Below the pieces are notes generated by a model, which saw only the letters and a program-made list of their open reading frames with translations, had not been told where the DNA came from and did no database searches. A program made the position numbers and the translations under genes. Below, piece after piece: positions 39,606 to 51,610 of a DNA stretch of 64,000 nt (the first letter of the stretch is position 1; every line of letters starts with the position of its first letter). This DNA comes from Bacteriovorax sp. BAL6_X (GTDB lineage Bacteria > Bdellovibrionota > Bacteriovoracia > Bacteriovoracales > Bacteriovoracaceae): the NCBI RefSeq assembly GCF_000443995.1, contig NZ_AUMC01000010.1, positions 1 through 64,000 on the forward strand. The letters are read 5' to 3'.

Positions 39606-40319
39606 ATGATTAGGATGATCTTTGTATTATTTTTAACTTTTATGACGATTAAAACTTTCGCAGCAGAAAGTGATCTCTACAATTTTTCATGGCTTGATAA
39701 AGATAAAGAAATTTATGTACTTCAAAATCGTAAGTTCAAAAAACAGCAACGCTTCTTTGTGAGTGGAGGATTCGGCAAGACTCTTTCAGGTGCATTCGTT
39801 GACTCAACCTCAATGCAGTTAAGAGCGGGTTATTTTTTTAGTGAAGAACTTGGAGCCGAGTTTATCTACTCTTCAAATTCAGGTGAAGAAAATGATACGG
39901 CCGCTTCAGTTAGAAATAGTAATGGTGGAGGTAGTGGCTCCATTCCGTTTAGAAGAATTGTAAATGACTATATTGGTGCTATGGCAACTTGGGCACCTTT
40001 TTATTCTAAAATAAATACATTCAATACTATTTTATACGTTGATTGGATCTTTGGTCTAGGTTTCGCAAAACTTAACGAAACAAATAACGGCCCAGAAGTT
40101 AGGGCAGGTTCACCAAACCCAGGTCTAACGATTGACGAATCTCACACAGGACTAATGTGGGATGTATCAACTAAGTTCTATATTAATCAATCTTGGAGTA
40201 TTAGAGCAGATATAAACGGAATCCTATATCAAGCAGCACCTGCAAGGGAGTCAGGTTCAGAAAGTGACCAACTATATTCAAATATTGATCTAACTTTCGC
40301 TGTTCAGTTTGACTTATAA
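39606..40319 (+). CDS. Outer-membrane beta-barrel protein of gliding-type operon
   Basis: A 237-residue protein with a signal peptide (cleaved near AFA-AES). The mature chain starts SDLYNFSWLDKDKEIYVLQNRK, then alternating beta strands (RFFVSGGFGKTLSG, LRAGYFFSEELGAEF), ending TFAVQFDL, the aromatic C-terminus of outer-membrane barrels. The pattern recalls the barrel family common in myxobacteria and bdellovibrios next to TPR and AgmX/PglI-type genes. It is the first gene of the run to 47593. GGCAGGA precedes the ATG. Confidence 0.8.
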   Translation: MIRMIFVLFLTFMTIKTFAAESDLYNFSWLDKDKEIYVLQNRKFKKQQRFFVSGGFGKTLSGAFVDSTSMQLRAGYFFSEELGAEFIYSSNSGEENDTAASVRNSNGGGSGSIPFRRIVNDYIGAMATWAPFYSKINTFNTILYVDWIFGLGFAKLNETNNGPEVRAGSPNPGLTIDESHTGLMWDVSTKFYINQSWSIRADINGILYQAAPARESGSESDQLYSNIDLTFAVQFDL

Positions 40320-40330
40320 AGGAAGCTATT

Positions 40331-41725
40331 GTGTTTAAAAAAGCGCTTATAACATTTCTAATATTGGGTCAGGCTTACGCTCTTGAGTCAATATGGACCG
40401 ATTTAACGAAATCAAAAAACCGCATTACTCGTTATCCAAATATCATTAAACAATTAATTGATAAAGAGATGTACCATACAGCAGTACCTTATGTGAAAGA
40501 GTACTTAGTTACATATAAAGGAAGAACGAATAAGAATTTTGAGTATCTTTTTGAACAAGTTGTATCAAAAGTAGGAGATAGACAGTTTATTCTACTTCCG
40601 GAAAGTTATCTTAAAAACATAGATTCTCCAACACTAAAGTACCTACTTGCAAAAAAACAACTGAAGAGAAGAAAGTACAAGGAAGCACTACAAACTTTAA
40701 ACGGAACTATCCCCGCTGCTCACCCTGTTAAGCCATTTGCCTTACACCTTGAAGGTGTAGCATTTACGATGCTAAGAAGCTTTAAGGCGGCAGTCGGTGC
40801 ATTTGAAAATTGTATTGATCAATCAACAAGTAGTAATGACGAAGTTCGTGCAAGGCAACTTCAAATTAATCAAGACTACTGCTTGGCCGGTATTGCTCGA
40901 GTAAAATATGAGCAAAGAAATCTAGAAGCTTCTGAACTAGCATTTATTGATATTGATAAAAGATCATATATATGGCCTGAATTACTAATTGAAGAGGCTT
41001 GGAATAGTTATTACAAGGGAGACTATAACAGGACTCTTGGTAAGCTTGTAACATACAAAGCTCCTGTTCTAAATTATGTAGTTAATCCTGAAATTAATGT
41101 TTTAAAGGCCCTTAGTTATTATAAATTATGTCTTTATGATGATATGTCCAATATCATCGATGATCATTACAAAGAATTTGATAAGTCTAAGCAAGTAATT
41201 GATAGGATGCTTGCTAAAAAGCATTCACTTGAGTGGTACTTTAAATTTATCAATAGTTATGTTGATGGGAAGAAGTATTACGATTCATTGACGAATAAGC
41301 TTCTTGAGAATGTAAGAAAAGATCCAGCATTCATTCAGCTTTATAAGAGTTATAAAGATGGGCTAAGAGAAATTAAATCAATTAAAAAAGTTAGAAATAG
41401 AAGACTCAGAAAAATTCTTGCGATAAACTTAAAAGATTCACTGTTTTTACAGCAGAAGCTTATAGGGTCATATGTAAAGAAGGTTTTTAAGCTAACTTCA
41501 GCTCAGTTAGAAAAATCATTTGTAGGTTTGAGTTATTTAAGACTTGAAGCTTTAAATGCAAGAAAAGCACGCTTGTATAGTGGAATTACTGATACGGGCG
41601 CAAGGGGTGACATTAAATACCTTAAGAGAAACTCAAAACAATACTTTTGGTCATTCAATGGTGAGTTTTGGGCAGATGAATTAGGTGATTATGTATTTGC
41701 TCTTCGATCGGAGTGTCAGAAATGA
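40331..41725 (+). CDS. Exported TPR-like protein
   Basis: A 464-residue protein starting at GTG 40331, behind AGGAAG, with a signal peptide (cleaved near QAYA). The remainder is helical, with repeated TPR-like pairs (HPVKPFALHLEGVAFTMLRSF, DYCLAGIARVKYEQRN, LIEEAWNSYYKGDYNRTL). It presumably acts as a periplasmic scaffold; by type it resembles the TPR proteins of the Myxococcus gliding complex. The next gene begins inside its stop (ATGA), so expression is coupled. Confidence 0.8.
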   Translation: MFKKALITFLILGQAYALESIWTDLTKSKNRITRYPNIIKQLIDKEMYHTAVPYVKEYLVTYKGRTNKNFEYLFEQVVSKVGDRQFILLPESYLKNIDSPTLKYLLAKKQLKRRKYKEALQTLNGTIPAAHPVKPFALHLEGVAFTMLRSFKAAVGAFENCIDQSTSSNDEVRARQLQINQDYCLAGIARVKYEQRNLEASELAFIDIDKRSYIWPELLIEEAWNSYYKGDYNRTLGKLVTYKAPVLNYVVNPEINVLKALSYYKLCLYDDMSNIIDDHYKEFDKSKQVIDRMLAKKHSLEWYFKFINSYVDGKKYYDSLTNKLLENVRKDPAFIQLYKSYKDGLREIKSIKKVRNRRLRKILAINLKDSLFLQQKLIGSYVKKVFKLTSAQLEKSFVGLSYLRLEALNARKARLYSGITDTGARGDIKYLKRNSKQYFWSFNGEFWADELGDYVFALRSECQK

Positions 41726-44550
41726 TTAAGGTTTTATTATTTGCAACTCTTATAAGTTTTAATTCTTTTGGTATCAAACTTAATACTAAAAGAGATCGTA
41801 TTGTTTCAGTAATCGATATGGAGCTTAAAGAGCTTGTACGTATGAAACGATTTTCAAAAAACGATACAATGCTCGATTTACGTATGGCCGAGCTTAATTT
41901 AGAAAAGGGCCGAATCATTCGTGAACAAGAGAATGAGAACTTTTTTAATTTAGATATTAAGGTTAAGAAGCGTATTGATCGTAAGAAGTTTTTTGCAGAA
42001 TCTAGCTCTTACTACAATCGCGCACAACAGATTGGCCTAGCAATCTTAAAAAAGAGACCAAATGCAAAGGCCCGTTCACATATCTACTATATTCTAGCTT
42101 ATAATGAACTAGAGAATGTTCAAATGGATCGTGCAAAGTCATTATTTGTTAAGTCCGTTAAGTCGGCGCCAAAGAATGACCTAATTGGTGTAAAATCACG
42201 TCTTGCACTAGGTGATATCTACTATCGAGAAGGGGACTTTAATAAGTCTAAGAGATACTACGATACTGTCATCTATAAAATTAAAGATGATAAATGGTAT
42301 ACAAAGTACTTATACAATCTAGCTTGGTCAAACTTTAGAGTAGGAAAGAAGAATACTGCGATTAAGCAGATGAAAGAAGTTCACAGCCTATCTAAGAGTC
42401 CAAAGTATATTGATAAGAAAGATATGGCCGGACGTGATGTAGGTTATTTCTATGCTGATAAAGGCGACACAAAAAGAGCACTTCAGTTTTACCAGAATGA
42501 AAAAGGAACTCCTGAGAAAAACTTCTACGATATGGGAATGTTTCTTCTTGATAAACAAAAGTATTCACAAGCCGCTAGCATGTTTAAGTCTGCATTTAAT
42601 GGGAAGAATGAAGAATATAAGGCGAAGTCTTTAGTTCAACTTCTACAAATTTACGATAAGTATAACAATAACAAGAACTTTCTTGTCTTTGCTCGTTCAA
42701 TTACTAAAACAAAATTGAATCCTGAACAAAGAAAAGAAGCGCTTTTTTATGTGACAAAGAGAGCAGCTCATCTTCAAAAAGAATTGGGGATGGCGCACAA
42801 TAAGAAACGCCCAAAAGTCATGAGGTTTAAGGGAAGAATTGCAGCAGAGCTTTACTATATTTCGCAAGAAGTTGACTCTAGCTTAAGTGAGAGAGCGCTC
42901 TTCTACGCTGGCGAATCTTACTATGCGGCAGCTGAATATAAGCAAGCACTCTTTATGTATGACAAGGTTATCTCTTCAGATAAGACGGATAATATATACT
43001 TTAAACGTTCTCTAGCAGGTATGATTGTCGTACTAAATGATAAAAAAACATCTGCATCAATTAGATCAAAGTACTTTGAAAAAGTTTTTTCAACATATAT
43101 TAAGCATGAAGATTCAAAGGTTAAAAAGAATAAGGCCGTTGAAAAATTATTCTCTTATTATGTTGATGAACAAAAAAATACTAAAAAGGCACAGGAATTA
43201 TTCTTTGTTTACGCCAAAGAAAATCCAAGAGCAATTTCAAAGAATGAGGCAATGATTGGTCGAATTGTTGACTTACATAAGTCGCAAAAGAATAAGACAG
43301 ATCTTATGAGCTTTGTTGGGGAATTAAAGTCAACAGGGATTCCTCTTAGAAGGGGCTTTATTACTCATTTAAATAAAATTATTCTTGTTGCTCAGTTTTC
43401 AGATATTCAAAAAGCAAATCAAAAAGGTGACAAGGTCACAGCATTAAAAGGATACCTCTTTATCTATAAAGATAAAGAAAGTACTGCAGAGGCCAAAAGA
43501 AATGCTGCTTATAATATTGCTGTTCTTTTTTATGAATCAGGTAATATTGATTTAATGTCAAAATGGTTAGAGCGCGCAATTGATGAAATGCTTCTTTCTG
43601 AGATTACTAAGTTCTATGAATCATTTAATAGTATTATTAGTGAATTATTTCTAAGGCAAAGAGTTGATGCTGGTATGGGCCTTACGCAGAAGTTATTATC
43701 AAAAACATGTTCAATTAGAAATAAGAATAAAGAGGGGCTCTTAAAAAACTATATTGTTATGGGACTTGCTACTCGAAAAGATAGCGCTGCTGTTAGATTT
43801 GTTGATGAACAATCTAAGTGTCGATTCAAGAACTCAACTTTACTAACATCATATGAACAAATCTTTGATTACTATATTGACTTTAAATTACTAAGTAAGG
43901 CCGATGCGATATATCGTCAACGTTTAAGTGCCTATACAAAGAGCTTATATAAGAAGTCTGAATATGTAGGTAAACTTTCGAAGCTTTCTAGGTCGCAGAA
44001 GAATAGTTCACGTTATGCAGGAGAGCTAAGATATATCTACAATAAAGTGAAAAAGAAGAAGAATCTAGCAATTGAAACAATAGATGAAGTCGCTTTAATG
44101 GAAGTTGATAAGTTAGAGAATGAAGTTAATAACTTTAATTCTATCTCACTTAGTTTTCCAGAGAATAAGTTTAATAACACGATGAAGCTAAAGTTTAATC
44201 GCTTGGATCGCATCCAGGGAACGGTCGCTGGTATCGTAGCAATGGGGTCAGGTGAGGCAATGGTTAAGAGTTACTCTCTTTTAATTAACTCTTTTGATCA
44301 ATTCTCGTCTGCTGTTGGAAATTTTTCACCTACAGGTAAATCTGCTGAATATGTGAAATCTTTTAAGGCAAGCATGGCAAATGTTTCAGTAAACCTTGCA
44401 ACTAAGTCACGTCAGTTAAAAAGAGAATTAGATAACTTAATAAATAAGAACGATGTTCTAACGAAGAACTTTGGGAGTCTGTCACGACAAGGCCTAGGTC
44501 TTCCAACAATGACAGGGCCTGTCTTAATGGATAAAAGGGGGAATCGTTAA
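41722..44550 (+). CDS. Large exported TPR protein
   Basis: A 942-residue protein from the ATG at 41722, eight bases after GGAG and overlapping the previous stop by four. A GTG at 41713 would add three residues. A short signal peptide (KVLLFATLISFNSFG) is followed by many TPR-type helix pairs, for example KSRLALGDIYYREGDF, YNLAWSNFRVGKKNTA and RALFYAGESYYAAAEYKQAL. The C-terminal about 150 residues lack repeats. Likely a periplasmic scaffold linking inner- and outer-membrane parts. The next ATG overlaps its stop by one base. Confidence 0.82.
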   Translation: MIKVLLFATLISFNSFGIKLNTKRDRIVSVIDMELKELVRMKRFSKNDTMLDLRMAELNLEKGRIIREQENENFFNLDIKVKKRIDRKKFFAESSSYYNRAQQIGLAILKKRPNAKARSHIYYILAYNELENVQMDRAKSLFVKSVKSAPKNDLIGVKSRLALGDIYYREGDFNKSKRYYDTVIYKIKDDKWYTKYLYNLAWSNFRVGKKNTAIKQMKEVHSLSKSPKYIDKKDMAGRDVGYFYADKGDTKRALQFYQNEKGTPEKNFYDMGMFLLDKQKYSQAASMFKSAFNGKNEEYKAKSLVQLLQIYDKYNNNKNFLVFARSITKTKLNPEQRKEALFYVTKRAAHLQKELGMAHNKKRPKVMRFKGRIAAELYYISQEVDSSLSERALFYAGESYYAAAEYKQALFMYDKVISSDKTDNIYFKRSLAGMIVVLNDKKTSASIRSKYFEKVFSTYIKHEDSKVKKNKAVEKLFSYYVDEQKNTKKAQELFFVYAKENPRAISKNEAMIGRIVDLHKSQKNKTDLMSFVGELKSTGIPLRRGFITHLNKIILVAQFSDIQKANQKGDKVTALKGYLFIYKDKESTAEAKRNAAYNIAVLFYESGNIDLMSKWLERAIDEMLLSEITKFYESFNSIISELFLRQRVDAGMGLTQKLLSKTCSIRNKNKEGLLKNYIVMGLATRKDSAAVRFVDEQSKCRFKNSTLLTSYEQIFDYYIDFKLLSKADAIYRQRLSAYTKSLYKKSEYVGKLSKLSRSQKNSSRYAGELRYIYNKVKKKKNLAIETIDEVALMEVDKLENEVNNFNSISLSFPENKFNNTMKLKFNRLDRIQGTVAGIVAMGSGEAMVKSYSLLINSFDQFSSAVGNFSPTGKSAEYVKSFKASMANVSVNLATKSRQLKRELDNLINKNDVLTKNFGSLSRQGLGLPTMTGPVLMDKRGNR

Positions 44551-45437
44551 TGAAGTATTTAGCTATTCTTTCAATGCTGCTAATGTTTTCATGTGCTTCT
44601 TCGAATAAGGGGACAACTCAACAACTTGAAGATAGTGAGCATATAGAAAATCTTACAAACGCAGATTTTAAACCTAAGAGTCAGATTCGCTATAATGCAG
44701 ACGCAGACTATCATTTAATTAATGACCTCGTTGATGATGTTCTCGAGGATGAGTCTCTAGACAAAGTAAAGTTAGATAAACTAGAAGAAATTGATTCAAA
44801 TAAAACGGGACTTGTTGGTCTTTGTTATATGGGAAATACGAAAGAAGGACTTGCTCAACTCGATCAAATGTATGAGAAGTACAAGGCCAATCCTTCATAT
44901 TGGAATCAACAAGGTATCTGCTCTTATAAGTCTGGAAATAAGAGGCTTGCAAAAGTATATTTCAACAAAGCTGTTGCTTTAGACGATAAGTATATCCCAG
45001 CAATTAATAATATTGGTGTGGTCTACGTAGATGAAGATAAAGATGCGAAGGCCATTGCAGCCTTTAAGCAAGTTTTAATTGTTAAGAAGAACAATAAGAC
45101 GGCAATGTTTAACCTGGCCAATATTTACATTAGATATGGACTGTATTCAAAGTCGACTTCATTACTTAAGCGACTTTACTCGCTGAATAAGAATGATCGT
45201 GATGTAATTAATTCATTAGTTTATTCTTACCTTTTTGATGCTAAACCTAAGTATGCTTATACAATTCTTAAAGAAATGAACTCCGATTATATTGATATCC
45301 CAAGTCTTAAGATTGCGCTTTACTACTCTTTAAAGCAATTAAAGAGTGAGCATGCAATCACAATTCAAAGCGATTTAGATACTACTGATATGAACTCTAA
45401 AGATAAGGCGTTCTATCAACAAATTAGGAAGATGTAA
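44550..45437 (+). CDS. TPR lipoprotein
   Basis: A 295-residue lipoprotein with lipobox MFSC and lipidated Cys15. After an acidic linker it contains several TPR repeats. These include PSYWNQQGICSYKSGNKRLA, AINNIGVVYVDEDKDAKAIA and AMFNLANIYIRYGLYSKS. Outer-membrane or periplasm-facing assembly protein by analogy with TPR lipoproteins of gliding and pilus machines. One-base stop/start overlaps on both sides place it firmly in the operon. Confidence 0.83.
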   Translation: MKYLAILSMLLMFSCASSNKGTTQQLEDSEHIENLTNADFKPKSQIRYNADADYHLINDLVDDVLEDESLDKVKLDKLEEIDSNKTGLVGLCYMGNTKEGLAQLDQMYEKYKANPSYWNQQGICSYKSGNKRLAKVYFNKAVALDDKYIPAINNIGVVYVDEDKDAKAIAAFKQVLIVKKNNKTAMFNLANIYIRYGLYSKSTSLLKRLYSLNKNDRDVINSLVYSYLFDAKPKYAYTILKEMNSDYIDIPSLKIALYYSLKQLKSEHAITIQSDLDTTDMNSKDKAFYQQIRKM

Positions 45438-45697
45438 TGATGAAAGTTTTAATGTCTGCCATGTTGTTATTATTTACTACTCAAGCTTATGGACAAAAGT
45501 CTGTTAAGGAAAAAGTAGTCTATAAATATAAGAAGTTTGAACAATTTAATCTTGAAGAGATTAGTGTTGATGGAGAATTAGGTGCTCCTGGTGAAATTAC
45601 AGTTTCGAGTCGCTACCTTCGTCAATTTAAAAATAAATTACCTTCAAAACCAAATTTTCATCTTGAAATGATGAAAGGTTTGGATCGTATACGCTAG
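45437..45697 (+). CDS. Small exported protein of gliding-type operon
   Basis: An 86-residue protein with a signal peptide (MMKVLMSAMLLLFTTQAYG). The mature part of about 67 residues is basic (KSVKEKVVYKYKKFEQFNL), followed by a mixed segment ending HLEMMKGLDRIR. I recognise no family. Its position between the TPR lipoprotein and the FHA-TonB protein, with one-base overlap upstream and nine-base gap downstream, suggests a structural partner. The related machines of Myxococcus also contain small accessory parts. Confidence 0.7.
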   Translation: MMKVLMSAMLLLFTTQAYGQKSVKEKVVYKYKKFEQFNLEEISVDGELGAPGEITVSSRYLRQFKNKLPSKPNFHLEMMKGLDRIR

Positions 45698-45706
45698 GGA
45701 GTAGAA

Positions 45707-47593
45707 GTGGATCAAGGAAGATCATTTTATTTAAAAGGTAAAAAAGATATTCGTCTACCTCAGAAAAATCGTATTATCTTAGGGGCAAGTGACTCTTGTG
45801 ATGTACGAATGAGAGGTGCTGGTATAGATGATATCCATTGTCTTATTGAGTTTGCGGACAAGGTATCAATCTACAGTATGTCTTCATTAAAACCTGTACT
45901 CGTAAATGGTGAGGAAATTGTTACAACTGAACTTAGAGGTGGGGAGACTATTACTATAGGTAATTATTCGTTCACATTTGATTCGACTGCACAACTCCCT
46001 CCTCAACAACTAATTCACCCTCAAGAGGTTGTGAAGAACTTACCAAAGCAGCCAAAATTTAATGATGAGAGAATTAGAAAGGATGAAGAGTATCAAGTTA
46101 ACTATCCTCTAAGTATCGATGATAATGTAAAATTTTCTGAATATATATTTGAAGAGCCAGATGAAATTTACCCTATCTTTAAATATAGTATTGATAAAGA
46201 AGCAGCTGAAGTCATTATCCTTTTTAATGGAAAAATTGTTTCACTAGATTATGTTCCTCACAAAGATGGAAAATTCTACTTAGTAGGCTCAAATGCTAGT
46301 GGGAATGATATTGAGTTTCCATATCTAGGCAAGAAGGAAAAAGTTGAACTCCTAGATATTAGAAAGAATGATGTTGCAGTAGGAACTATTCCTGGATTTA
46401 AGCATCGTACATTCTTAAATAATAAAAATGCTAAAAGTTCTCTTCGCCGTGATGATATTCATATTTTTGAAAAAGATAATTTAAAAGTTTTTATTAGGGG
46501 AACTGAAGCTCCTCCAATTGTTAAGACGGCTCCAATCTTTAGACGTGATAAAGAATTAAGGAAATATCTTGTTTTCTGTCTTCTTTTCTTTATAGTCTTT
46601 GCAGCTGGAATGCTGAATTTTAAAGTTGATAAAGAAATAGAAAAAGAGAAGGTTCCAGAAAGAATCGCAAAAATTCTTTATCGACCAAAACAACTTCGTG
46701 TTACTAAGAAAAAGAATGTTGTTAAAAATGAAGTTAAAAAGAAAGTTGAAAAGAAGGCACCAGTTAAGCAGGCCGTCTCTAATGTTGAGAAACCAAGAAA
46801 GGTGACAAAGAGTAAGGGAGATCCAAGACAGAAGTCTACGTCTACTCCGAAAAAAGGTAAGGCCAGACAAGGCAAGCCAAATGATAAGCAAGTTGTAAGA
46901 CAAAAGAAAAAGAAAGCATCTAAACCTGCACGTACAACAAATAAGAAAACAACGGTGAAGAAGTTGGCGACAAATAGAAAAAGTCGCGGAAAAGTTGATG
47001 TTTATAAATCAACATCTTTTACCTCTTCAATGAACTCTCTAATGGCCAAGGGCGGAGCTCTAAACTCTTTTAAAGCTGGCTCTGGCGCAAGTGAAAGTTT
47101 TGCAGATGATAACTCTGCACTATCGACAGGTGATTCTGCACAAGTTCAAAAAGCAGATGTAAAGGCGGAAGTAGGTTCATTAAGTAGTAAGGCGAGTGGA
47201 AAACTTTCATCATCATTTGGCACAGATGGACTTGTTCAAAAGAAACAAGTTTATATTGCTGGTGTACCGTATCGTGAGGTAATCTTAGGTTCAATGGATC
47301 GAAATGATATTATGCGAATTCTGATGGAAAACGTTCCACAGTTTAGATACTGTTACCAAAAAGAACTTGATGTTCAACAGAAAGGTATTTCTGGAGTACT
47401 TGGAATGGAATTTGTTATCGGTGCCTCTGGTAACGTGACAAAGGCAAGTGTTGCCAAAGCTGACCGAGGTGTTCCGCCAAGTGTAAAAAATTGTGTTGTT
47501 AACCATCTCAAAACAATTCAATTCCCACGTCCAAAAGGTGGGGCCGAAGTTGGTGTTCACGTACCACTTAACTTAAATTCAAGCGCTTACTAA
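45707..47593 (+). CDS. FHA-TM-TonB-like protein (GltG/PglI type)
   Basis: A 628-residue inner-membrane protein with the order of Myxococcus GltG/PglI. A cytoplasmic FHA domain (about residues 1-95, LGASDSCDVRMR, DDIHCLIEF, VLVNGEE) reads phospho-threonine in known proteins. A second globular region runs to about 270. One membrane helix (about 285-303) is followed by a long Lys-rich linker (about 310-430) and a TonB-like AgmX/PglI C-terminal domain (about 527-628). The linker could cross the periplasm to the outer-membrane barrel. It starts at GTG 45707 after GGGAG and is followed by a terminator. Confidence 0.85.
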   Translation: MDQGRSFYLKGKKDIRLPQKNRIILGASDSCDVRMRGAGIDDIHCLIEFADKVSIYSMSSLKPVLVNGEEIVTTELRGGETITIGNYSFTFDSTAQLPPQQLIHPQEVVKNLPKQPKFNDERIRKDEEYQVNYPLSIDDNVKFSEYIFEEPDEIYPIFKYSIDKEAAEVIILFNGKIVSLDYVPHKDGKFYLVGSNASGNDIEFPYLGKKEKVELLDIRKNDVAVGTIPGFKHRTFLNNKNAKSSLRRDDIHIFEKDNLKVFIRGTEAPPIVKTAPIFRRDKELRKYLVFCLLFFIVFAAGMLNFKVDKEIEKEKVPERIAKILYRPKQLRVTKKKNVVKNEVKKKVEKKAPVKQAVSNVEKPRKVTKSKGDPRQKSTSTPKKGKARQGKPNDKQVVRQKKKKASKPARTTNKKTTVKKLATNRKSRGKVDVYKSTSFTSSMNSLMAKGGALNSFKAGSGASESFADDNSALSTGDSAQVQKADVKAEVGSLSSKASGKLSSSFGTDGLVQKKQVYIAGVPYREVILGSMDRNDIMRILMENVPQFRYCYQKELDVQQKGISGVLGMEFVIGASGNVTKASVAKADRGVPPSVKNCVVNHLKTIQFPRPKGGAEVGVHVPLNLNSSAY

Positions 47594-47613
47594 GTTCATA
47601 AAAAAACGCTAAC

Positions 47614-47645
47614 GCCCCTTGTTGTAAAATAAGGGGCATATTTTC
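47614..47645 (+). terminator. Terminator after the FHA-TonB gene
   Basis: GCCCCTT (47614-47620) pairs with AAGGGGC (47631-47637) over a 10-base loop, followed by ATATTTTC. A moderately strong intrinsic terminator that separates the gliding-type operon from the LolA-like gene. Confidence 0.75.
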
Positions 47646-47752
47646 AATAATTTAATGAATCCATTGTCATTATCACGAGTAAATGTTCAATCATTGTGTT
47701 GTGAATGCTACTATCTGATGGGAAAACATACCGAAAAAACACGAGGTTTCTA

Positions 47753-48514
47753 ATGAAGATAGTTAAACTTTTATTAATGTTATTAACACTTTCTGTATTT
47801 GCTAATGATAAAGGCCTAGAGATCGCTAGGAAAATGGATCAAGCGAATAAAGGTTATATTGGTGACACATCAACGATGGAGCTTGTCCTAGTTGATTCAA
47901 GTGGTGTTGAAATTATCCGCGAAATGCTAGGAGCTTCAGGAGAATTTGATGGCGTTGACAAGAGCTTAATGGAGTTTAAAAAGCCACTTGATGTTAAGGG
48001 AACTAAGCTACTTACTTGGACATGGAAAAATGAAAAAGATGATGACCAATGGCTTTATCTTCCGTCTTTAAAGAGAGTGAAAAAAATTAACTCACGCTCA
48101 AAAGGAAGCTCGTTCATGGGCTCTGAGTTCTCGTTTGAGGATATCGGTGGTCAAACAATTGAAAAATATAATTATAAATATCTAAGAGATGACAAGGTTG
48201 GAGGACAAAAAGTTTGGGTACTTGAAAGAGTTGCAAAGGCAAAGAGTTCTTACTCTAAGGTAGTTCTTTATGTTTCTCAAAAGTATTTAGCACCAGTTAA
48301 GTCAGAGTATTACAACAAAAGAAATGAACATATAAAAACTTCTACAATGGATGACTTCAAATCTTACACTGTTGGTAAGAGAAAGATGTGGCGTGCTAAT
48401 AAAATTCTTATGCTAAATCTTAACAATAAGAAGCAGTCGATTTTTAAGTGGAAGAATAGAGTTATTGGTAAGACCGTTAATGAGAATGATCTTACTAAGA
48501 GGAAGTTAAAGTAA
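47753..48514 (+). CDS. LolA-like outer-membrane lipoprotein-sorting protein
   Basis: A 253-residue exported protein from the ATG at 47753, behind CGAGG. An upstream in-frame start at 47705 would spoil the signal peptide MKIVKLLLMLLTLSVFA. The core (TSTMELVLVDSSGVEIIREM, then DDQWLYLPSLKRVKKINSR, SFMGSEFSFEDIGGQ) is the LolA-like fold annotated as outer membrane lipoprotein-sorting protein. This is distinct from classical LolA and often sits beside RND permeases. Here its partner is the barrel gene two bases downstream; no permease is present. Confidence 0.8.
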   Translation: MKIVKLLLMLLTLSVFANDKGLEIARKMDQANKGYIGDTSTMELVLVDSSGVEIIREMLGASGEFDGVDKSLMEFKKPLDVKGTKLLTWTWKNEKDDDQWLYLPSLKRVKKINSRSKGSSFMGSEFSFEDIGGQTIEKYNYKYLRDDKVGGQKVWVLERVAKAKSSYSKVVLYVSQKYLAPVKSEYYNKRNEHIKTSTMDDFKSYTVGKRKMWRANKILMLNLNNKKQSIFKWKNRVIGKTVNENDLTKRKLK

Positions 48515-48515
48515 A

Positions 48516-49799
48516 TTGAAAACACTAATATACGGATTAATCACAGGTGCACTTACTCTATCAAGTCTTAGCTCTCTCGCTGATGGTAGAGGAGAGGTTT
48601 CGTTAAACTTTAGAGGTTATATTGATGATGCTCAAACTCTTTTAGGTGAGGATCAGCCAAATGAATTGGCCTTTGTTAAAGTTGCTCTAGAAGATAGAGG
48701 CGACTGGAGCGGATGGGAGTATAACCTTTCTCTAATTGGTCGTGCTGATGAGAAGTACCAGGATAATAGCTATGTTGACTTCAATGAGTTTAATATAGGA
48801 CGAAGTTTTGGGAATTGGCAGGCATCAGTTGGTCAGCATATGTTTATGTGGTCACGTCTAGAAGCATATCATGTTGTGGACGTCATCAACTCTCGTATCA
48901 ATGATGGCAATATTGAACGATTTGAAAAGCTTGGGGAAACTTCTGTTGTTCTAAGTCACTACACAAGTATTGGGACGATGAAGTTTATCTATATGCCATA
49001 TTTTAAAGAAGGTTTCTATCCAGATTCTAAAATGAGAATCTTTGATGGCCTTAGTCCTCAGAAGCAAAATGTCGTTAAAGGCAATAAAATTACGGACTCT
49101 GATGAAGATAATCAATTTGATCAATTCGCAGTTTACTATGCTCATCAGTTTGGTGATCTAGACTTAACTGTCTTTGCAATGGATCATATCGATCGTACTA
49201 GACCTATCTTTGCAGCTGCATCAGTACCTGATCTATTAGCAGGAAATATCAATGCTTATTATCTAGATGTTGCTGATTATGGTACCGCTGCTACTTATTT
49301 TTGGGGTGAGCAAACTTTTAAATTTGAATATCTTTATTCAGACTTTAACGTAAATGATTCAGTATCAATTATTGACTATACAGGTGGGCAAAGAGAAATC
49401 TTTAATTATCAACTAGCGTCTATTGGTCATGAGTATACTTATAATTACGATAATAACTGGAGCTCAGGGTTCTATACTGAATACCAGCGTGTTCTAGGTG
49501 TTGGGAAGAATAAGAGAAGCCAAGCTCAGATTTTTCAAAATGACCTCTTTATTGGTCATCGTCTAGCTCTAAACGATGCGTATTCTAATGAATTTATGTT
49601 AGGCCTCTATATTGACCTTGAAAGAGCAGGGGAGACTCTATACTACTTAAGTTATGAGCGTCGTTTAAACAATGCTTGGAAGATGAAGTTAAACTTTCGT
49701 GGAGTGACTATTGGTGATGATGCCAAGGCCGACAATCGAGGACTGTACGTCCTTGATGGTGATGATGAGTTTGGCGTTACATTAACGAGATTCTTTTAG
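48516..49799 (+). CDS. Porin-like outer-membrane beta-barrel
   Basis: A 427-residue protein with a signal peptide (cleaved near SSLA). The body is made of alternating strands (VSLNFRGYIDDAQ, WEYNLSLIGRADEK, WQASVGQHMFMWSR) and ends GVTLTRFF, with terminal Phe as in outer-membrane barrels recognised by BamA. The pattern resembles the DUF1302-type porins that accompany LolA-like proteins. It starts at TTG 48516, with AAGAGGA 15-20 bases upstream, two bases after the LolA-like stop, so the two form a pair. Confidence 0.75.
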   Translation: MKTLIYGLITGALTLSSLSSLADGRGEVSLNFRGYIDDAQTLLGEDQPNELAFVKVALEDRGDWSGWEYNLSLIGRADEKYQDNSYVDFNEFNIGRSFGNWQASVGQHMFMWSRLEAYHVVDVINSRINDGNIERFEKLGETSVVLSHYTSIGTMKFIYMPYFKEGFYPDSKMRIFDGLSPQKQNVVKGNKITDSDEDNQFDQFAVYYAHQFGDLDLTVFAMDHIDRTRPIFAAASVPDLLAGNINAYYLDVADYGTAATYFWGEQTFKFEYLYSDFNVNDSVSIIDYTGGQREIFNYQLASIGHEYTYNYDNNWSSGFYTEYQRVLGVGKNKRSQAQIFQNDLFIGHRLALNDAYSNEFMLGLYIDLERAGETLYYLSYERRLNNAWKMKLNFRGVTIGDDAKADNRGLYVLDGDDEFGVTLTRFF

Positions 49800-49812
49800 A
49801 GCTAATATAACC

Positions 49813-49838
49813 GAAAGCCGCGCCTGCGGCTAGCTTTC
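49813..49838. repeat. GC-rich hairpin 1 between convergent genes
   Basis: AGCCGC (49816-49821) and GCGGCT (49826-49831) form a perfect stem over a GCCT loop. The flanking GAAAGC/GCTTTC allows an alternative longer pairing. It is much richer in G+C than neighbouring DNA. On the plus strand it could act as a terminator for the porin-like gene, but the T-run is short. Confidence 0.6.
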
Positions 49839-49855
49839 TCCTGTCACATTCATTT

Positions 49856-49894
49856 GTGCGCCAAAGCTTGCCGTCGGGCAATCTTTGATCGCAC
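49856..49894. repeat. GC-rich hairpin 2 between convergent genes
   Basis: An interrupted 15-bp stem: GTGCG/CGCAC, then CAAAG/CTTTG, then TTGCC/GGCAA, around a short GTCG loop. It lies directly before the stop of the minus-strand TolR-like gene. No T-run follows on either strand, so its role is unclear. Confidence 0.6.
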
Positions 49895-49898
49895 GATG

Positions 49899-50408
49899 TT
49901 ACTCTTGCCCTAAAACAACGAATTTATACTGTTGAAACCCCGCTTCTGCAGCAGTATGCATAAGTTTCTTAACATAATTATACTTCAAAGATTTATCAAT
50001 AACGAGATTCACAATACCCGAGAACTTCTTCGCATTAGGTGTCATCTTTGCAAGATCATCAATTTCTTTCTTCTTTGCAACGAGCTCGTTATATAGTGGA
50101 ACAATAAGCTTCCCACCTTGAGAGTAGAGTTGTCCTTTGAAAGTTTCAGTATTAAGGACTTCTTTATCATCAACCCAAACGATCTTTGTCGAAACTTGAA
50201 CAACAACACCTTGCTCATTAATAGACTTTGAGGCCGAGTGTGGAATTGTAATATCTTTTGGAATATTAAGAATTACACCCGTTGTATCATAACTGCGAAT
50301 TAGGAATACAAGAAGAATAACAAGAATGTCGAGAAGGGAAGTGATATCTATATCAAAGGGTTCCTTCTTTCTTCTGATTCCTCTATTTCTAATTGAACGA
50401 TTTCTCAT
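49899..50408 (-). CDS. TolR/ExbD-like motor protein (AglQ/AglS type) 1
   Basis: A 169-residue single-span inner-membrane protein. A basic N-terminus leads into DIDITSLLDILVILLVFL, whose Asp27 is the proton-carrying aspartate expected in TolR/ExbD/MotB-type stators. The rest is periplasmic and resembles the ExbD C-terminal domain (NLVIDKSLKYNYVKKLMHTAAEAGF). It is one of two TolR-like genes after one TolQ-like gene, as with AglR-AglQ-AglS of Myxococcus. CAGG precedes the ATG. Confidence 0.87.
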   Translation of the reverse strand: MRNRSIRNRGIRRKKEPFDIDITSLLDILVILLVFLIRSYDTTGVILNIPKDITIPHSASKSINEQGVVVQVSTKIVWVDDKEVLNTETFKGQLYSQGGKLIVPLYNELVAKKKEIDDLAKMTPNAKKFSGIVNLVIDKSLKYNYVKKLMHTAAEAGFQQYKFVVLGQE

Positions 50409-50429
50409 AATAAACCTGATTCTTTATTT

Positions 50430-50957
50430 CTACGATTGTGTATCGCCAAAAATAATATTGTTAAAGAGCTCAAGAACTTTTACGTCCTGCCCATCTCTCT
50501 TTGTCCAAACTTCTGGATCTGTTTTCTTAATATCGCGAACAGCATCCATAATTTTAATTAGTTCTTCGTAAGAGATATTTGCATTTGGGATGAAGATAAC
50601 TTCTTTCTCATCGACATATCTCTTCTTAAGGTCAATTAACTTTTCTCTTAATTTGAATAGATCATATTCTCCTTCAGCTGTTTTTCCGGCCGTGAAAATA
50701 CGTCTCTCATTCGGGCCAGAGTGAAGAGTAATACTACTTGTGTTAATCTTTAGAGTTAGGTCTAATCTTTCTTTTTTCTTCTTTGGGGGAGTAGAGTTAG
50801 AAATGATAGGAACATCAGATCCAATCTCGTAAATTCTCACAAAGTTTGCAGACATTAAAAGAAAGAAGATAAAGATAAAGACCGAATCTAAAATTGGAAT
50901 TAGATTCAGTCTCTCAACTTTCTTATTCTTATATTTTCGACTCGGTTTTCTATACAT
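50430..50957 (-). CDS. TolR/ExbD-like motor protein (AglQ/AglS type) 2
   Basis: A 175-residue second ExbD/TolR-type protein. NLIPILDSVFIFIFFLLM contains the membrane aspartate Asp24. A short proline/lysine stretch and the periplasmic domain follow (NANISYEELIKIMDAVRDI). It is clearly diverged from its neighbour, so the pair is not a recent duplication. Its start lies two bases after the TolQ-like stop, so it is co-translated. Confidence 0.87.
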   Translation of the reverse strand: MYRKPSRKYKNKKVERLNLIPILDSVFIFIFFLLMSANFVRIYEIGSDVPIISNSTPPKKKKERLDLTLKINTSSITLHSGPNERRIFTAGKTAEGEYDLFKLREKLIDLKKRYVDEKEVIFIPNANISYEELIKIMDAVRDIKKTDPEVWTKRDGQDVKVLELFNNIIFGDTQS

Positions 50958-50959
50958 AA

Positions 50960-51610
50960 TTACTTACTTTCTTCTGTATTTAAGATGTCCATTAACTTAA
51001 CTGAATACTCATCGATCTCATTGATGATCTTTTCTGACTTTGAACTTAGGAAAGCGTGAATGATCATAATAGTGATTGCAACAAGTAGACCAAGGAATGT
51101 TGTGTTCATCGCTTGTGAAATACCTTTTGCAAGAAGCTCTGCTTTTTGTGTAGGGTCTGCAGCAGCAACGGCCGCAAATGAAGCGATTAGACCTTGAATT
51201 GTTCCTAGTAGTCCAAATAGTGTTGAGATATTTGCAATTAGCTGTAAGTAGTTAAGTCTTAGTTCAACTTTTGGAATAACTTCTAAAGCTGTAGCATCGA
51301 TTGCATTTTGAATTTGCTCTGGTTTAGCAGAAGCTCTTTCAAGTCCACTTCTTAATACCTTTGGTAGAGCAGCGCTTGATCCTGAACATACACGCGAGGC
51401 ACCTTCAACATCATTTGCCATAATATAGCGACGAAGTTCATTCATAAATGAAGCCCCATCAACATCAAATTTAAAGCTTAGTTTAAAGAATCTTTCTAAT
51501 CCAATGGCCAGACCTACTGCCCAAATAAAGAGAATGATCCACATGAAGATTCCACCGTTTTGAAAAAAAGCAGCGATCGTGTTTACCGATGATACAGCTG
51601 TGCCTTCCAT
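50960..51610 (-). CDS. TolQ/ExbB/MotA-type proton channel (AglR type)
   Basis: A 216-residue inner-membrane channel subunit. Three membrane helices are visible. The conserved polar and glycine residues of the second and third lie in STLFGLLGTIQGLIAS and AMNTTFLGLLVAIT, as in ExbB, TolQ and MotA. It forms the stator with the two TolR-like proteins and converts proton flow to mechanical work. AAGGAG precedes the ATG. First gene of the minus-strand motor operon, convergent with the operon at 39606-49799. Confidence 0.92.
   Translation of the reverse strand: MEGTAVSSVNTIAAFFQNGGIFMWIILFIWAVGLAIGLERFFKLSFKFDVDGASFMNELRRYIMANDVEGASRVCSGSSAALPKVLRSGLERASAKPEQIQNAIDATALEVIPKVELRLNYLQLIANISTLFGLLGTIQGLIASFAAVAAADPTQKAELLAKGISQAMNTTFLGLLVAITIMIIHAFLSSKSEKIINEIDEYSVKLMDILNTEESK

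Follow-up and report, generated by a model that had tools for sequence, protein, structure and literature searches.

Two convergent gene arms

The 64,000 bases analyzed here (the window; bases 1-64000 of contig C10) belong to Bacteriovorax sp. BAL6_X, which has a genome of 3,233,679 bases and is an obligate predator growing inside its prey (PMC4511183). Relatives recovered by sequence, including Bacteriovorax sp. MedPE-SWde (G001) and DB6_IX, served for comparison. The plus-strand operon starts 77 bases past addA, with a gene (39606..40319) for an outer-membrane 8-stranded beta-barrel of the GltA/GltB type (OMP_myx_plus), whose match to TIGR04565 (2e-30, 105.8 bits) passes the cut-off of 60 bits. 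The predicted structure of this protein (pLDDT 86) has 8 strands, and the top PDB folds are those of OmpA and OmpW. Small barrels of this kind serve as substrate channels only unusually. The barrel is kept in 25 related loci and is similar to GltA and GltB, which have been described with an OmpA-type domain (PMC4488436). A profile search of the operon for paired GltA and GltB barrels retrieved a single barrel of the TIGR04565 type.

Three genes coding for TPR proteins follow on the same strand. The periplasmic gltC product (40331..41725) matches the gliding_GltC model NF033756 over profile positions 254-620 of 622 (1.1e-26, 93.8 bits) and does not reach its equivalog cut-off of 450 bits, which was reached by none of the 144 genomes of the phylum. 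The large protein that comes next (41713..44550; Pfam TPR) retrieved no match to a GltD model in the profile search, and both its TPR architecture and its position between gltC and gltE agree with GltD; this position is the same in the type I loci of relatives and in a genome of 3,782,950 bases (G102) that we take to be B. bacteriovorus HD100, to whose counterpart it is 26% identical. The gltE-type protein (44550..45437; TPR 1e-11) is lipoprotein-like, with a signal peptide ending in cysteine (LLMFSC-A), and matches the GltE model NF033758 weakly (8e-4). Downstream of it lies a gene for a small exported protein of 85 amino acids (45440..45697), which we call gltF by position only and which occupies the same place in 34 related loci.

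The last gene of the run, gltG (45707..47593), was identified by NF033760, NF033768, an FHA fold and TonB_C. Its product consists of an FHA domain (residues 5-95), a beta-rich domain, a transmembrane segment (287-305), a disordered Lys-rich periplasmic linker and a TonB-like C-terminus (about 532-622). The match to NF033760 (5e-25, 88 bits) does not reach the equivalog cut-off of 650 bits, and the tail passes the cut-off of 40 bits for NF033768 (3.6e-18, 65.5 bits). Since the FHA domain filled the match list in a fold search of GltG, the tail was judged by profile: its best profile match was PDB TonB (E 0.004), TonB_C was found by weak matches in 20 of 21 relatives, and the TonB-like end carries two invariant cysteines. 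An earlier note on this DNA had listed on the plus strand a barrel, three TPR proteins (one of them a lipoprotein), a small exported protein and an FHA-TM-TonB protein, and all of these open reading frames were recovered. Its description of one-to-four-base overlaps through much of the run held for gltD/gltE (1 base) and gltE/gltF (1 base, depending on the start chosen), but not for gltC/gltD, which overlap by 13 bases, nor for the remaining junctions of the glt and agl genes, which are gaps of 2-21 bases.

The same note had proposed that the FHA domain would allow phospho-signal input. The fold is indeed present (Pfam 7e-7; predicted structure with Z of about 15 to the FHA domains of GarA and EmbR) and R22 and H44 are kept, but the serine of the SxxH motif is lost (DDIH, with Asp at position 41), as is the NG motif (Lys at position 62). 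Among 24 aligned sequences the Ser occurs in 15 and the Asn in 12; the NG motif is absent from the four genus members aligned, and other loci mostly retain NG and/or the SxxH serine. The BAL6_X domain is thus missing two of the three phosphothreonine contacts, and phosphothreonine input through GltG appears doubtful in this genus.

Directly 3' of gltG stands a terminator-like hairpin with a 10-pair stem (47614..47637, + strand; consensus match only), followed by genes for a LolA-like protein and a 427-amino-acid barrel (47705..49799, + strand; PF17131, 1.7e-53). The minus strand then carries two TolR/ExbD-like subunits, one in the aglS position (49899..50408; ExbD 1.5e-14) with membrane aspartate D27 (codon 50330-50328) and one in the aglQ position (50430..50957; ExbD 1.7e-13) with membrane aspartate D24 (codon 50888-50886), and finally aglR (50960..51610; MotA_ExbB 3e-26), coding for a TolQ/MotA-type channel subunit with three transmembrane segments. 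Both aspartates are invariant among the aligned relatives, including HD100, in agreement with the earlier proposal of one TolQ-like and two TolR-like proteins that keep the membrane aspartate.

Linkage among relatives and copy number

The common gene order among relatives was addB-addA-barrel-gltC-D-E-F-G, facing aglS-Q-R, and then gmhA-trx, rdd and polA, so that the set has a chromosomal address common to relatives. The motor is convergent in 22 loci and four more, and co-directional in four (L064, L066-L068); six further loci (L053, L054, L060, L065, L070 and L075) have a type I glt operon with no motor in the downstream stretch covered. Absence of linkage in relatives, which the earlier note had held would speak against its reading, was looked for and not found: glt and agl genes are linked in about 25 related loci, and because the arrangement recurs so often it is far beyond chance. 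The split into convergent arms is therefore real, but it is the usual form of the locus among relatives and not a peculiarity of BAL6_X. The flipped motor may be derived, because the HD100 equivalent, Bd0828-0838, is co-directional.

Other genera of the Bacteriovoracales carry a further set, type II, in the order barrel-gltC-gltF-aglRQS-gltD-E-G. One genome whose type I operon lacks an adjacent motor (G027, locus L075) has one AglR, which falls in the type II identity range; one motor might there serve two Glt sets. In Myxococcus, AglRQS serves both Glt and Nfs.

AglR, GltC and the GltG tail each occur once in BAL6_X, and AglR is also single in MedPE-SWde and G003. HD100 has four AglR proteins and four published Agl-Glt-type sets (PMC3169522, PMC2797640). 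A genome-wide search of BAL6_X found no other Agl-type motor. The regulator MglA is encoded at C9:158739-159323 (77% identity to the MglA of G007), and a protein search recovered MglA from all 73 good genomes in the family. The idea that the type II set is tied to MglA and that BAL6_X has no MglA was rejected, as the Pfam Arf model had overlooked the protein that the protein search recovered. One genus of the same family (L040; genomes G018, G135 and G165-G174) has MglA and no close AglR match; in four members the only match is a weak one.

In a tree of AglR proteins sampled from the phylum, the BAL6_X protein groups with Agl-set proteins and apart from the TolQ and ExbB of its own genome (support 92/95); kinship with M. 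xanthus was gauged only through the GltC, GltE, GltG and tail models. We could not equate the window set with one of the four sets of HD100: the AglR group was mostly of Bacteriovoracales, with no clear single partner, long branches and unsure deep forks.

An Agl-Glt-family machine and its possible roles

These results suggest that the locus codes for the single Agl-Glt-family trans-envelope machine of BAL6_X, which probably gives slow gliding. The Agl-Glt-type composition seen by the earlier note is upheld by the GltC (1e-26) and GltG (5e-25) matches, the tail over its cut-off and the linked one-plus-two motor, and further support comes from the barrel over its cut-off, the placement of AglR, the conserved linkage and the presence of MglA. 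The family assignment thus stood, but gliding itself did not follow with the same force: GltC and GltG lie below their equivalog cut-offs with scores about half those of Bd0828-0838, there is one GltA/GltB-type barrel in the operon, and no second GltG-type tail was found. Gliding is inferred because B. bacteriovorus glides and shows surface induction of aglQ (bd1480; PMC9140294), and because BAL6_X is without another Agl-type motor. A limited literature search turned up no paper recognised as describing gliding by Bacteriovorax or Halobacteriovorax.

By analogy, protons would flow through an inner-membrane channel of AglR and the AglQ/AglS pair, as homology and the two conserved aspartates suggest, and in passing would turn or flex this pair within the AglR ring. 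The channel would then drive GltG, presumably through a contact such as that between AglR and GltG in Myxococcus (PMC3169522), and the periplasmic TonB-like end of GltG would reach GltC, GltD, GltE and the 8-stranded barrel in the outer membrane. The most likely recipient of the work is adhesive or surface material on the outside of the cell, and slow gliding could result on surfaces, on prey, or when leaving a spent prey cell.

A misread Tol-Pal or TonB-ExbBD system is very improbable. A TolQ-like and TolR-like pair with a TonB-like partner would fit one, and tolQ is the best of the named channel models for AglR, but AglR scores 59 bits against a tolQ cut-off of 221, and another TolQ of the genome (207.6 bits) has as neighbours a TolA-like gene and TolR (108.4 bits), in a probable Tol set at C3:449 kb. 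The window TolR-like subunits score 20-22 bits against the TolR model (cut-off 127), and the ExbB model (37 bits, cut-off 206) and ExbD models (at most 21 bits, cut-off 216) are likewise not reached. An ExbB/ExbD-like pair lies at C10:903 kb and another gene of channel type at C6:111 kb; two more MotA/ExbB-family genes lie elsewhere. Besides two TolR-like subunits, the window locus contains GltC and a tail of gliding type that passes its cut-off, and neither TolB nor Pal nor a TonB-dependent receptor was recognised in it. Placement with Tol-Pal or ExbBD, the other outcome that the earlier note had set against its reading, was thus looked for and not found, given the Tol- and Exb-type sets elsewhere, the low equivalog scores and the AglR tree. 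The C6 locus (L006, C6:109642-112980) has a MotA/ExbB-like gene followed by one for a transmembrane protein with a von Willebrand-type stretch, recognised by eye, possibly forming a proton-driven set. It is also quite unlikely that the LolA-like protein and second barrel are extra machine parts in the genus, for example for placing lipoprotein adhesins. In all six genus members seen the pair adjoins gltG, and in the four with long enough contigs it sits between gltG and aglS, but in other genera it is found apart from glt, in most cases with a HAD-type hydrolase gene (family assigned by eye) as its neighbour, and in BAL6_X the terminator-like hairpin separates it from gltG. We judge it to be a genus-specific insertion outside the machine.

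A more serious possibility, though one we hold clearly below gliding, is that the same core machine energises the outer membrane or moves polymer or adhesins in prey attachment, entry or establishment. Core sets are widespread in bacteria with no known gliding (PMC3169522); expression differs among the four HD100 sets, one of which, Bd0412-0420, shows induction in the early part of predation (PMC2797640); Nfs of Myxococcus moves spore-coat polymer, not cells (PMC3858216); and the lower scores of the window GltC and GltG against the myxobacterial models point the same way. On the other side, any gliding by such a machine in BAL6_X must use the window set, as there is no other Agl-type motor, and BAL6_X still has MglA, which regulates gliding in Myxococcus, though it serves type IV pili and predation as well (PMC3983030). 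A tentative and rather unlikely variant has the type I set as the housekeeping Agl-Glt set of the Bacteriovoracales for prey attachment or entry and the type II set as the glider elsewhere; no type II set was found in BAL6_X, MedPE-SWde or G003, and under this reading BAL6_X and its close relatives would use an Agl-Glt machine to invade prey and would not glide.

The kind of machine is already known, and the value of this member lies in being a natural case with a single copy at a single locus. A 2026 review describes the Bdellovibrio gliding machinery as unidentified and its motor as a major open challenge (PMC13104615). Four paralogous sets blur the genetics in HD100; BAL6_X has one set, with MglA, in one 12-kb locus, and the role of Agl-Glt in gliding, prey entry or exit is therefore testable at one locus.

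Comparison with known systems

The gammaproteobacterial core complex and Nfs, which we likened by description, join an AglRQS-type motor to a GltC/D/E/G-type apparatus (PMC3169522, PMC3858216). Two plasmids were rejected as gammaproteobacterial comparisons: that of Vibrio has a TolQ-like beside an ExbD-like gene and an annotation without GltG, and that of Pseudoalteromonas carries a TonB-ExbBD locus.

The Agl-Glt system of M. xanthus (clusters G1, G2 and M1) shares with BAL6_X AglR, two TolR-like subunits, GltC, GltG, a GltE-like protein and an OmpA-type barrel. It differs by its three loci and by having both GltA and GltB, which stabilise one another (PMC4488436), whereas BAL6_X has one locus with one barrel. 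A profile search of the BAL6_X genome for GltI/GltJ with an AgmX/PglI tail found only the tail of GltG. Counterparts of GltI and GltJ, which are essential in Myxococcus (PMC3169522), are unlikely in BAL6_X because the genome lacks a second GltG-type tail.

Closer in layout is HD100 Bd0828-0838 (774-792 kb; PMC3169522), in which the order OMP-gltC-D-E-F-G-aglR-Q-S is the same save for the flipped motor, with TIGR04565 barrels, an FHA-TM-TonB GltG and two Asp-bearing TolR-like subunits. It departs from the BAL6_X locus in having two barrels, in its co-directional motor and in being one of four sets; the AglR proteins are 38-39% identical, and GltC and GltG score 188 and 234 bits against the myxobacterial models, as compared to 94 and 88 bits in BAL6_X. 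Elsewhere in HD100, at about 3493 kb (L144), lies a lone GltC-like gene with no further match to the window set within 19 kb. The type II set of other Bacteriovoracales (for example L082-L085) has the same parts and an AglR 55-60% identical to that of BAL6_X, in a different gene order and with a co-directional motor where that of BAL6_X is convergent.
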